From Chloroflexota bacterium (GTDB lineage Bacteria > Chloroflexota > Anaerolineae > Anaerolineales > UBA11858), in the NCBI GenBank assembly GCA_018648225.1, contig JABGRQ010000061.1:1-60767 (forward strand): a stretch of 60,767 nucleotides of DNA, written 5' to 3'. Both the position numbers and the translations under genes were made by a program. This document shows, piece after piece, positions 24,772 to 41,145 of the stretch (its first letter is position 1; every line of letters starts with the position of its first letter). The notes under the pieces are model-generated. The model did no database searches. It was not told the origin of the DNA and saw only the letters and a list, made by a program, of their open reading frames with translations.

Positions 24772-25956
24772 TTATCTTTCAACAACGATGCTCAACCCCA
24801 GACCGCCGCTGATGCACAGCGTTGCCAGCCCTAACTCGGCAGCGCGTTTCTGCATGGCGTGCAGCAGCGTAACCATCATGCGCGCCCCGGTGCAGCCGGT
24901 TGGATGTCCCAGCGCGACCGCACCGCCGTTGATATTACGAAGCGCAGGGTCCCAGTTGAGTTCGCGTTCCACCATCAGCACTTGCGCGGCAAAGGCTTCG
25001 TTGAGTTCAATCAGACCAAAGTCGTTCAGGGTTGTGCCGGTTTGCGCCATAACTTTGTGTGTGGCAGGGATGGGGCTGAGGCCCATACGCGTCGGCTCCA
25101 CGCCCGCGCTGGCAAAGCCGCGGATGACGGCCATCGGCTGGATGCCTTCGGACTTGGCGAGGTCGGCGGTCATCAAAATGACCGCCGCGCCCGCGTCAGT
25201 GATGCCGCTGGCGTTGGCGGCGGTGATCGTGCCGCCTTCTTCGGCAGGGCGGAAAACAGTCGTCATTGTTGCCAGTTTCTCCACCGTCGAATCAGCGCGC
25301 GGGCGCTCGTCGCGCTCAAACCATATTGTGCCCTTGCGCCCCGGCACTTCCACGGGGACGACTTCGGCAGTGAAATCGCCGTTTTCCCAGGCAGCGGAGG
25401 CGCGGCGGTGACTTTCCACGGTGAAGGCATCCTGTTCGGCGCGCGAGATACCGAGTTCTTCGGCCAGCCGATCTACAGTTTCACCCATGAGCATATCGGA
25501 CATGGGGCAGAAATAGCCGTCCTGGACATTGGAATCGACCAGGGTATCGTTGCCCAGGCGGTAGCCCCAGCGCGCTTTCATCAACAGGTAAGGGATTTGT
25601 GACATCTGCTCGATGCCGCCCGCCAGCACAATTTGATTTTCACCCAGCATGATCGATTGCGCCCCCAGCAGAATGGCCTTCAAACCGGAACCGCAGGCCA
25701 TATTAACGGTGAAGGCCAGTTTTTCAACCGGAATCTGGCTGCGATAGGCAATCTGGCGCGCCATGTTGGGGCCGTTCCCGGCGTGGCGCGCGCTACCGAA
25801 GATGGTCTCGTCGATACGGTCGGGAGTCAGACCAGCCCGAAGGATGGCGGCGCGGGCGGCGATTTCGCCGAGTTCTACGGCGGAAATATCTTTCAGCGCG
25901 CCGCCGAAATTGCCTATCGGCGTGCGGGCGGCGGAGATAATGGCGACTGTTGTCAT
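24772..25956 (-). CDS. Acetyl-CoA acetyltransferase (thiolase)
   Basis: A 394-residue thiolase with all three active-site blocks: the nucleophilic Cys in NMACGSGLKA (about residue 90), the His in NGGAVALGHPTGCTGA (about 350) and the second Cys in LCISGGLG (about 380). It joins two acetyl-CoA to acetoacetyl-CoA or cleaves 3-oxoacyl-CoA. It lies between the aminotransferase and CoA-transferase genes on the same strand, consistent with a route that cleaves a 3-oxoacyl-CoA product. The start is set by conserved N-terminal residues; no ribosome-binding site is evident. Confidence 0.95.
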   Translation of the reverse strand: MTTVAIISAARTPIGNFGGALKDISAVELGEIAARAAILRAGLTPDRIDETIFGSARHAGNGPNMARQIAYRSQIPVEKLAFTVNMACGSGLKAILLGAQSIMLGENQIVLAGGIEQMSQIPYLLMKARWGYRLGNDTLVDSNVQDGYFCPMSDMLMGETVDRLAEELGISRAEQDAFTVESHRRASAAWENGDFTAEVVPVEVPGRKGTIWFERDERPRADSTVEKLATMTTVFRPAEEGGTITAANASGITDAGAAVILMTADLAKSEGIQPMAVIRGFASAGVEPTRMGLSPIPATHKVMAQTGTTLNDFGLIELNEAFAAQVLMVERELNWDPALRNINGGAVALGHPTGCTGARMMVTLLHAMQKRAAELGLATLCISGGLGLSIVVER

Positions 25957-36757: not shown

Positions 36758-37396
36758 TTACTCTTGCAGGAGAGGGGTTACAAATTCTTCCAATATTTCA
36801 AGGCTGATAGGGCCGTACCAGGCCAGCCGTATAGTGCCGGTGCGATCCACAACATACGAACTTGGCAAATGATTATTGTTGAAAGCATTGTAGATATGTT
36901 TTTTCGCATCCCGCCAGAGGGGAAAACTCAGCCCCATTTTTTGGCGGAAGGCCTCCATATCGTCGGCAGAATCTTCGGCGTTCAGGCCGATCACCAGCAG
37001 GCCATCGGCTTGCCTGGCCTGGTAGTAGGCTTCCAGTTCGGGCATTTCGGCCACGCAGCCGGGGCACCAGGTAGCCCACATATTCAGCAGCAGCACCTGG
37101 CCGCGATAATCATCCAGCGAGGCCGCGGCGCCAGTTTGATCGACGAGTTCCAGCGCCGGAGCGGGGAATTCAACTACTTGCGGGATCACCGATGGGACGC
37201 GCCGCGAGCCGTATTCGATATAAGCGGGCGTCGGGGTCGGACCTGAGGGGCTGGGTGCCAGCCATTGGGGGATCAGATTCAACCCAATGAACAGGACTAC
37301 CGCCACAACCGCCGCACCGATCAGCGCTTTTTGCAGGGTCCAGAAGCGTTTGGGCTTCCAGCGTTCTTCATAAGGGTAGTCGGATGGATTCGTCAT
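36758..37396 (-). CDS. TlpA-like membrane-anchored thioredoxin
   Basis: A 212-residue paralogue of the next gene, from the ATG at 37396; the frame is open 24 codons upstream without similarity. One membrane helix lies at about 25-45, then a Pro-rich linker. The active site is WATWCPGCVAEM and the cis-Pro region is LPSSYVVDRTG. The tandem pair with different active-site dipeptides (PG and PP) suggests different redox potentials or partners. It follows the NifX-like gene by about 114 bp on the same strand. Confidence 0.92.
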   Translation of the reverse strand: MTNPSDYPYEERWKPKRFWTLQKALIGAAVVAVVLFIGLNLIPQWLAPSPSGPTPTPAYIEYGSRRVPSVIPQVVEFPAPALELVDQTGAAASLDDYRGQVLLLNMWATWCPGCVAEMPELEAYYQARQADGLLVIGLNAEDSADDMEAFRQKMGLSFPLWRDAKKHIYNAFNNNHLPSSYVVDRTGTIRLAWYGPISLEILEEFVTPLLQE

Positions 37397-37510: not shown

Positions 37511-37885
37511 TTAGTGTGTGTGAACGCGGCGCGGGTCGCTGATCAACTCGCCGCGCAAGTATTGCTGTAAGGCCGTTTCGATCTCACCGCCGCTGAGGTA
37601 GACCTCTAATCCGGCATTTTGGGCTTTGTCCAACGCGGGTTGACCCATGCCGCCGCAAATCAATACCTGGCAATCGGTGAACGTCTGGAACATCTGTGCG
37701 CCTTTGCCATGATGATGGTGGTTGGCATCGTGATGATGGTCGCCCGTGAAATGTGCCTTTTGGCGTTCTTCTTCTGCCAATACCTGACCATTTTCAACGG
37801 TATAGATTTTGACTAAAGGGGCGCGCCCAAAATGGCTGCTGATGCGGGTACCGTTCTCGGTAATAATCGCGATTTTTTTGATCAT
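37511..37885 (-). CDS. NifX/NafY-like iron-molybdenum cofactor-binding domain protein
   Basis: A 124-residue protein of the dinitrogenase iron-molybdenum-cofactor biosynthesis family. It has the N-terminal IAIITENGTRISSHFGRAP and the core FTDCQVLICGGMGQPALDKAQNAGLEVYLSGG. A His-rich loop (GDHHHDANHHHHGKG, about 47-61) should bind metal. No nitrogenase genes are present, so it is probably one of the stand-alone homologues of uncertain role in metal or iron-sulfur handling. It shares one base with the glutaredoxin stop (TAATG), giving tight coupling to a thiol-redox operon. Confidence 0.88.
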   Translation of the reverse strand: MIKKIAIITENGTRISSHFGRAPLVKIYTVENGQVLAEEERQKAHFTGDHHHDANHHHHGKGAQMFQTFTDCQVLICGGMGQPALDKAQNAGLEVYLSGGEIETALQQYLRGELISDPRRVHTH

Positions 37886-38148
37886 TACAGGTCCAGCAAC
37901 TTGTCGATTTTTGGGCGGTCAAAGCCAACGATGATTTTGTTGCCGATTAAGATTTGGGGCACGCCCTGCTGACCGCTGCGGCGCAGCATATCGCGGGCGG
38001 CGGTTTGGTCGCGTGAAACATCCACATTTTTGAAGCGCACGCCTTTTTGGCGGAAATATTGTTTAGCCGTTTTGCAGTAGGAGCAAGTGGGTGTACTGAA
38101 CATAATGACGCGGGGTTGTTTTTTCTTGGTTTCGGTTTTTGTTGTCAT
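37885..38148 (-). CDS. Glutaredoxin-like protein
   Basis: An 87-residue single thioredoxin fold starting at the ATG at 38148 with a GGAG site. The active site is FSTPTCSYCKTAK, and the cis-Pro is in GVPQILIGNKIIVGFD. This is the NrdH/YruB type of small glutaredoxin. It lies 50 bp after the UGA-containing disulfide oxidoreductase and overlaps the NifX-like gene, so all three are probably one transcript. Its active site keeps both Cys, in contrast to its upstream neighbour. Confidence 0.9.
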   Translation of the reverse strand: MTTKTETKKKQPRVIMFSTPTCSYCKTAKQYFRQKGVRFKNVDVSRDQTAARDMLRRSGQQGVPQILIGNKIIVGFDRPKIDKLLDL

Positions 38149-38198: not shown

Positions 38199-38864
38199 TC
38201 ATCCGGCCAGAACACGCTGCAATTCTTTTATAAGTTTTCCTTCGGGTACAGAACCAATTACACGTCCCGCGCCGTCGTTAATGGTGGTCTGCGGCACGCC
38301 GCTTACATAGTGTTTTGCGGCTAATTCCTGAAATTCGGTGGCTTCGATGGCTTCAGCCTGAACCAGTTCACTTTCCATTGCAAATTGATGTGCGAGCATC
38401 ACGGCTCGTGGACAGTGCGGTCAGGTAGGGGTTACAAAAACCTGTAAGAGTACAGGTTCTTTTAAGTCTTTGAGGTAGGCGCGCGTCTTGGTATCTAACC
38501 CAGAGTCACCGGAGGAAATCCGTAGTAGATCGTTGATTAGGGAACTGAACTCATGACCTGAGGGGATGCCCGCGTAGCGCACGCCATAGTCAATGAAATC
38601 ATCGCCGTCTTTGCCAGCCAGCACCATGCCAGGAGTCTTATCTACATTGAATTTGACAGCCAGATCGGCGTTGGCGTTCAGGTTATAAACACTCATTTCA
38701 AGTTGATCGGAAAGGGAAACGACTTCTTCGAGTAGTTGCTGGGTGTCGTCGCAGTAGGTGCAGTTTTCTTCCTCGCCGAAGAAGAGTATGTGAACAGGGT
38801 TTTTCATCTCGGCAAAGGCATCGCGCACCTGCCCTTTGATTTGATCATTGAGTAAATCGGCCAT
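38199..38864 (-). CDS. Protein disulfide oxidoreductase selenoprotein (in-frame TGA)
   Basis: One frame of 222 codons runs from the ATG at 38864 to TGA at 38199, with an internal TGA at 38423-38421, codon 148. The product has two thioredoxin folds, as in the PDO family (about 215-225 residues). The first site is ENCTYC (Cys35, Cys38). The second reads LLQVFVTPT, TGA, PHC, PRAVMLAHQ, where homologues have CPYC or CPHC, followed by the cis-Pro YVSGVPQTTIND. The TGA therefore replaces the first Cys, giving UPHC. A hairpin at 38393-38408 fits the bacterial SECIS model. Splitting at the TGA would give two partial proteins; I read it as one selenoprotein. Confidence 0.85.
38393..38408 (-). promoter_or_regulatory. 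Candidate bacterial SECIS hairpin (PDO gene)
   Basis: On the minus strand, CGAGC and GCTCG form a 5-bp stem around the loop CGTGAT. The loop begins 17 nt after the TGA and has G in its second position. An outer TGT/ACA pairing is possible across an internal loop. This fits the bacterial SECIS rules. Confidence 0.65.
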
Positions 38865-39068
38865 TGAAAGTATGAACTCCTTTATGCCCGGAAGGGCAGC
38901 GTACGAATTTTCTCGACACAACGAGTTTTTTTAGAAAATCGTTGTGTCGAATTTTTAGATGCGCGGGAAGGAGAAAGGTTACAATAGACCTGTTCCTGAA
39001 TAAAACTGATTGCGAAGGCGGGGGATGCCGAGATGGTAGTTATTTGGGAACAGCTCTATTTTTGAAAT

Positions 39069-39106
39069 ACAAAGAGCTTCTGTGATTTTTTACAGAAGCT
39101 CTTTGT
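39069..39106. terminator. Hairpin between anti-sigma and PDO genes
   Basis: ACAAAGAGCTTCTGT and ACAGAAGCTCTTTGT form a perfect 15-bp stem around an 8-nt T-rich loop. It lies 20 bp after the anti-sigma gene stop on the minus strand and probably ends that operon. Confidence 0.75.
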
Positions 39107-39125
39107 AATGGAATAGTTGTGTGCG

Positions 39126-39428
39126 CTATTCTTGCGCTTCTCCCACTGAATTTTCCAGAAAATCTTCCAGGTTCAGGCGGCGGAAAAGGCGCAGGCGCAC
39201 ATCCGAAGGGATTTCGGGTTCTGCGGTAGTTTCGTGGTAAAGATAGACCGTCTTTTTGTAGGTATCTACAACAATGCGGCAGTCTTCGCAATCGGCGATG
39301 TGGCGCTCAATTTCGTTACATAGTTCTAGCCTCAGTTCGCCGTCCACATAGTCGGAGAGCGAATCGAGGAGATGGAAGCAATCTTGATGATTGTGATAAT
39401 CGTGTTGTATCATAGCTTTCTCTGGCAT
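39126..39428 (-). CDS. Anti-sigma factor with zinc-finger (zf-HC2-like) domain
   Basis: A 100-residue protein starting 2 bp after the sigma-factor stop. The pattern DYVDGELRLELCNEIERHIADCEDCR contains the H-x3-C-x2-C zinc ligands of ZAS anti-sigma domains, which bind and hold ECF sigma factors. There is no membrane segment, so the sensor is cytoplasmic; in related cases disulfide formation by the zinc ligands releases sigma. That would suit the thiol-redox genes next to it. An ATG 5 codons further in is an alternative start. Confidence 0.88.
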   Translation of the reverse strand: MPEKAMIQHDYHNHQDCFHLLDSLSDYVDGELRLELCNEIERHIADCEDCRIVVDTYKKTVYLYHETTAEPEIPSDVRLRLFRRLNLEDFLENSVGEAQE

Positions 39429-39429
39429 T

Positions 39430-40038
39430 TTATACGCTTTCTGGAACCTGGCCCTGATAATAGGCGGTCAGGCTTTCGCGTAAATTCATGCGGGCACGGT
39501 GCAGGCGAGTTTTTACAGCGGTTTCGCTAATTTCCAGGACTTCGGCGGTTTCGCGGGTTGAAAGCCCTTCAATATCGCGTAAGACAAACGCTAGCTTGAG
39601 ACTTTCTGGTAACTGGGTGATGCTACGATCCAGTTGTTTGCGGGCTTCGTCGCTGACTAACTCATCTTCAGGCAGGCAGCACCAATCGACGATTTGCAAT
39701 GGCCTGGCAGTTTCATCATTGTTATTTTGTTGCGGCGATTCCACAGAAACAGGATCAGGCCGTTTCTTGCGCAAAAACATCAGGGCTTCATTGGTTGCAA
39801 TGCGATACAACCAGGTTGATACTTTCGACTGTCCCTGAAATTTTGGCAACGCATGAAAGGCTTTGATAAACGTATCTTGAAGCACATCTTCAGCGTCTTG
39901 TGGATTGTGCAGCATTTTCAATGCCAGGCGATAGATATACCCAGAATAGGCTTCTACCACGCGGGCAAACTCAGCCTGATCGCCGTTTTGAAGTGCTTCC
40001 AAAGAAAATTCTGCTTCTGTTCGATCCTGTTGATTCAT
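39430..40038 (-). CDS. ECF-family RNA polymerase sigma factor
   Basis: A 202-residue sigma factor. Region 2 reads YIYRLALKMLHNPQDAEDVLQDTFIKAFHALPKF and then STWLYRIATNEALMFLRKK; region 4 reads LPESLKLAFVLRDIEGLSTRETAEVLEISETAVKTRLHRARMNLR. A 40-residue linker contains a Cys pair (WCCLPED). The anti-sigma gene follows directly. The regulon is not shown, but the redox operon just downstream is an obvious candidate. Confidence 0.94.
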   Translation of the reverse strand: MNQQDRTEAEFSLEALQNGDQAEFARVVEAYSGYIYRLALKMLHNPQDAEDVLQDTFIKAFHALPKFQGQSKVSTWLYRIATNEALMFLRKKRPDPVSVESPQQNNNDETARPLQIVDWCCLPEDELVSDEARKQLDRSITQLPESLKLAFVLRDIEGLSTRETAEVLEISETAVKTRLHRARMNLRESLTAYYQGQVPESV

Positions 40039-40752: not shown

Positions 40753-41145
40753 ATGACTGTACTAACACTTGAACTCCCCGCCATGTATGGGGATCACCAT
40801 GTCGTTGAAGTCAGGCGAATTTTGCTTGAACTCAAGGGTGTGGAAGATGTCTATGCCAGCAGCGGCTTCCGCGCTGCCGAGATCACCTATAACGCCAAAA
40901 AGGTTACCAAGCAAGATATTATTGCAAAGCTTGAAGAGGTTGGCTATATCGGTGAATTGTCGATTCCGGAAGAGACCGATGTGCCAGCCAATGAAAGTGA
41001 AGTAAAAGACCTGTTCTTCCGGCACACGGAAGCTTATGCTCAAACCAACCGAGTGGTCAGCTTTGAGCAAAATGTTGGTCATGCAGGCCGCGCTTTATGG
41101 CCGTGCCCTGGCATGGCACCAATTACTAGTATGGAAGAGGAATAA
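40753..41145 (+). CDS. HMA-fold protein without CxxC, upstream of cooS
   Basis: A 130-residue protein with an AAGGAGG ribosome-binding site. Residues 1-70 have the heavy-metal-associated (HMA) ferredoxin-like pattern (VVEVRRILLELKGVEDVYASSGFRAAEITYNAKKVTKQDIIAKLEEVGY), but the metal-binding CxxC is replaced by GDHH. The C-terminal 60 residues are not recognised and hold a single Cys (WPCPGM). It ends 4 bp before cooS, so it is translated with CO dehydrogenase. A role in nickel delivery or in binding the enzyme is inferred. Confidence 0.75.
   Translation: MTVLTLELPAMYGDHHVVEVRRILLELKGVEDVYASSGFRAAEITYNAKKVTKQDIIAKLEEVGYIGELSIPEETDVPANESEVKDLFFRHTEAYAQTNRVVSFEQNVGHAGRALWPCPGMAPITSMEEE

Follow-up and report, generated by a model that had tools for sequence, protein, structure and literature searches.

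Selenocysteine-containing proteins of the TIGR02187 family have been a listed selenoprotein family since 2006, and the selenium form is not new. Zhang et al. (2006; PMC1794560) listed the family as 'homolog of AhpF, amino-terminal domain', with hosts including Carboxydothermus hydrogenoformans and Symbiobacterium. Two later reviews (2022, PMC9312934; 2026, PMC13188914) equate it with TIGR02187, give its motif as UxxC and its example as ABB15282.1, and name it 'Homolog of AhpF N-terminal domain (Grx-like domain protein)', while the current NCBI name of the TIGR02187 model is PDO_seleno_TRX. Searching the literature for selenoprotein together with 'protein disulfide oxidoreductase' (PDO) returned nothing relevant, the family being filed under the AhpF N-terminal homologue, and in a narrow search of open-licence papers Chloroflexota members were not found discussed.

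The window analyzed here, a 60,767-nucleotide stretch of contig JABGRQ010000061.1 from a Chloroflexota bacterium, carries on its minus strand a gene, here pdo, that almost certainly encodes a functional selenoprotein: a predicted PDO of two thioredoxin folds in which selenocysteine (Sec) replaces the first, attacking Cys of the C-terminal CPxC motif. This reading of the sequence is based on the frame, the placement of the UGA at the catalytic Cys, selection on both sides of it, a hairpin tied to UGA-containing genes, and the presence of Sec machinery. The elements of the gene are as follows.

38199..38864, minus strand: pdo coding sequence, with ATG at 38864, 221 codons when TGA is read as Sec, and a terminal TGA at 38201-38199
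38421..38423, minus strand: in-frame TGA, read as selenocysteine (U148) from the alignment of homologues
38751..38762, minus strand: first active site, CTYC at residues 35-38, with its two Cys retained (translation and homologue alignment)
38412..38423, minus strand: second active site U-P-H-C, residues 148-151 (translation and homologue alignment)

The frame runs from 38864 to 38199, and stops abound when these coordinates are read on the plus strand. In a profile search the product scored 266.4 bits against TIGR02187 (cut-off 185), with residues 7-217 matching profile positions 2-208 of 209, and its AlphaFold model had a mean pLDDT of 95.6. Two thioredoxin folds, each with a CxxC or UxxC motif, are accounted for by CTYC, UPHC and the fold match, and AhpF models scored far under their cut-offs. 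As judged from these matches the product is a two-thioredoxin-fold PDO, its catalysis being predicted. A preliminary description of this DNA, which gave no strand for the gene, had proposed a PDO with Sec in its second active site, an interpretation now supported by homologues, hairpin and Sec machinery. Its placement of the TGA where the second CPxC has its first Cys agrees with the alignment, where that column is otherwise an invariant catalytic Cys (context VTPT-U-PHC-PRAV), and the retention of both Cys in the first site was likewise confirmed at residues 35-38.

The open reading frame list made with translation table 11 splits pdo, yielding a 166-aa ORF that stops at the TGA at 38421. The earlier claim that a standard gene caller misses the active site thus holds for plain table-11 ORF calling, but may fail for annotation with the current NCBI model; the corrected reading, with TGA as Sec, recovers the catalytic site lost in such calls. 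Elsewhere in the window, three long frames interrupted by TGA were set aside: those at 25600 (plus strand) and 47696 (minus strand), whose translated stretches look non-coding by eye, and that at 37244 (plus strand), which lies antisense to a TlpA gene.

The truncated 166-aa ORF is also what would speak for a pseudogene, that is, an ordinary Cys-type PDO cut short by a nonsense mutation, and comparison with homologues bears directly on this explanation. Among 61 genomes (the genome itself and 60 relatives), a PDO match was obtained in 21 and covered the second site in 20. In these 20 homologues C35 and C38 are invariant, and the second-site column holds TGA in 8 (L008, L009, L010, L014, L015, L017, L020, L027) and Cys in 12. 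A wider set of 100 loci, which includes named records, mainly from Anaerolineae/Chloroflexota, and a few cases of the same genome twice (e.g. L009 and L046), gave 19 TGA and 81 Cys, proportions that are not unbiased frequencies since the locus search pattern had Cys in the motif. The Cys homologues aligned at U148 that the preliminary description had suggested looking for are present in both sets. It had also named homologues disrupted elsewhere as grounds for suspecting a pseudogene; no internal stop elsewhere in the PDO genes was found in the 100 loci.

Selection points the same way. For the window gene paired with its nearest relative (L008/L009), dN/dS was 0.092 before the TGA and 0.088 after it, and for L008/L010 and L009/L010 it was below 0.1 on either side where computable, indicating that purifying selection, with dN/dS of about 0.09, acts on both sides of the TGA. 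Together with the homologues, these values bear out the earlier observation that conserved protein sequence flanks the TGA in the same frame. A decayed gene is hard to reconcile with a TGA that occupies the same column in many species at 39-93% identity, with the lack of any further stop or frameshift in the gene, with 73 codons downstream of the TGA under purifying selection, or with the hairpin and Sec machinery that accompany the TGA (see below). Because the TGA and the downstream frame are conserved across genera, the pseudogene explanation is refuted in practice, and we regard it as very improbable. A sequencing or assembly error at a TGC or TGT codon is, if anything, even less probable: the window's assembly is a 226-contig draft, but independent assemblies (G004, G005, G007, G010, G012, G021, G055 and named MAGs) have the TGA at the same place.

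In two loci (L109:3001-3642 and L078:3001-3645) we observed PDO homologues apparently without the first CxxC. L109 retains UPYC as its second site, and in this protein one Sec site may be sufficient by itself.

Bacterial SECIS elements, by the criteria used in bSECISearch, are hairpins just after the UGA with an apical loop about 16-37 nt away and a G in the first two loop positions. The window gene contains one candidate, within the range 38300-38430 in which the preliminary description had proposed to look for it.

38392..38409, minus strand: SECIS-like hairpin ACGAGC-CGUGAU-GCUCGC, with 5 pairs, one A.C mismatch at the base and a 6-nt loop

In its loop distance, loop G and 5/6 pairs this hairpin conforms to the bacterial pattern. 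Its loop, which begins at nt 18 past the UGA, carries at position 2 the G that had been noted earlier. The hairpin had also been said to start 17 nt after the TGA, but that figure is how far away the apical loop lies, the stem starting 12-13 nt after the UGA. Taken singly, the hairpin is weak evidence, because its score is reached in 21% of trials when only the window gene is recoded synonymously, and it is the comparison across genes that counts; folded in a 54-nt stretch, it was no more stable than shuffled sequences (z 0.40). Across genes, five or more of the six stem pairs were present in 17/17 distinct Sec genes versus 13/78 Cys genes (means of 5.76 and 3.67 pairs), a difference whose p-value of 2e-10 is too small since it counts related sequences. 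The typical hairpin of the Sec genes is GCGAGC-CGUGNU-GCUCGC, the hairpins of L009 and L010 having a G.G mismatch within the stem. Codon choice in the hairpin region differs as well, with the Arg codon CGA in 13/17 Sec versus 4/78 Cys genes and the Leu codon CTC in 15/17 versus 11/78.

The preliminary description had called for a search of the genome for selA, selB, selC and selD, and all were found by family searches, the tRNA-Sec scoring above its gathering cut-off with the loop CUUCAAA, from which the anticodon is read as UCA, and lying at a contig end of the draft assembly. In each of the eight genomes with a TGA-type PDO at least one of selA and selB scores above cut-off; selA is missing from G010 and selB from G012, two genomes that are about 80% complete. 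Among the 12 Cys genomes, about half have neither selA nor selB (G008, G031, G044, G054, G056 and G029, the last with only a weak 35-bit selA match). The selD gene of the window's genome (L037:1501-2436) itself has an in-frame TGA in the context CSGUASK, and selenophosphate synthetase is, by its sequence, probably a selenoprotein too.

This machinery also bears on the possibility that the UGA is read as another residue (e.g. Trp or Gly) either under a reassigned code or by simple readthrough. A code of that kind would leave the frame open as well, and nothing else was found in favor of this possibility. With selB, selA, selD and a tRNA-Sec (UCA) present, with the TGA aligned to a catalytic Cys rather than to Trp or Gly, and with a TGA also serving as terminal stop of this gene and of L009 and L015, we give this reading hardly any credence and retain decoding as Sec.

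For the decoding, SelB with Sec-tRNA(UCA) would bind the hairpin just 3' of the UGA, which would then be decoded as Sec. In UxxC thioredoxin-fold selenoproteins the Sec generally attacks and the Cys resolves. By analogy, the selenolate of U148 may attack a substrate disulfide to give a mixed selenenyl-sulfide, which Cys151 would resolve, and the N-terminal CTYC site could relay electrons to or from the second site. The protein would then reduce or isomerize protein disulfides, with neighboring glutaredoxin-like, TlpA/ResA-like and OsmC proteins as its possible partners.

The genes around pdo are conserved alike in Sec and Cys loci. Three conserved neighbors lie close by in the window.

37885..38139, minus strand: YruB-family glutaredoxin-like gene (CSYC), downstream of pdo, start codon taken at 38139
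39126..39428, minus strand: zf-HC2/RsrA-like anti-sigma factor, HxxxCxxC (HIADCEDC), upstream of pdo
39430..40038, minus strand: ECF sigma factor, upstream of pdo

In the 100 loci, an ECF sigma factor was found near the PDO gene in 55, a zinc-finger anti-sigma factor in 57, a glutaredoxin-like protein in 29, TlpA/ResA in 44-45 and OsmC in 49, counts that are lower bounds as flank lengths differ, and in which sigma and thioredoxin-like matches may be paralogues. The HIADCEDC of the anti-sigma factor fits the HxxxCxxC motif of RsrA-type zinc anti-sigma factors. An ECF sigma/zinc anti-sigma pair beside pdo suggests redox-stress control and a possible regulon, in which the neighboring sigma factor would control pdo. 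Between the anti-sigma gene and pdo there are two 16-nt inverted repeats (38913-38950 and 39068-39107, arms 94% and 100% complementary), possibly terminators or operator sites; because they separate the two genes, pdo may have its own promoter.

Two further genes in this region were noted. A FeMo-cofactor-domain (NifX/NifB-type) protein is encoded at 37511-37885 (minus strand), and such proteins occur near the PDO gene in at least 22 of the 100 loci. A heavy-metal-associated domain protein at 40753-41145 (plus strand), adjoining the gene for a CO dehydrogenase catalytic subunit, gave a weak match, below cut-off, to NF041115 (UxxU metal-binding (seleno)protein).

A quickly built tree with 96 rows requires 14 changes of the Sec/Cys label, counted without direction. 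At least four of these are forced by well-supported branches, so exchange between the two residues happened on more than one occasion. We consider it reasonably probable that the PDO of Anaerolineae-type Chloroflexota has undergone repeated Sec/Cys switches inside a conserved neighborhood with a sigma/anti-sigma pair, forming a potential series of natural replicates. If so, the series would bear on what a thiol oxidoreductase with two sites gains from Sec. Closely related Sec and Cys forms share a gene neighborhood, which allows the chemistry of the two residues to be compared cleanly.

Compared with known systems, the window protein shares with the Sec-containing TIGR02187 family represented by ABB15282.1, as described, the family model, the UxxC motif and one Sec per protein, and differs in its host, a member of the Chloroflexota rather than one of the hosts listed in 2006. 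The Cys-type PDOs of Pyrococcus furiosus, Pyrococcus horikoshii and Aquifex aeolicus (1a8l, 1j08, 2ayt), the closest solved structures by sequence, likewise consist of two fused thioredoxin folds (TM 0.91-0.92 to the AlphaFold model, 32% identity), but have Cys in the second site where Sec is predicted here. The N-terminal domain of AhpF (5h29, 1zyn) has the two-thioredoxin fold as well, with lower similarity (TM 0.79-0.85), and in contrast to AhpF the window protein has no fused flavin reductase. A known selenoprotein family thereby gains a set of Chloroflexota members, and the additions to it are modest: repeated Sec/Cys switching in Anaerolineae-type Chloroflexota, and a conserved ECF sigma/zinc anti-sigma neighborhood.
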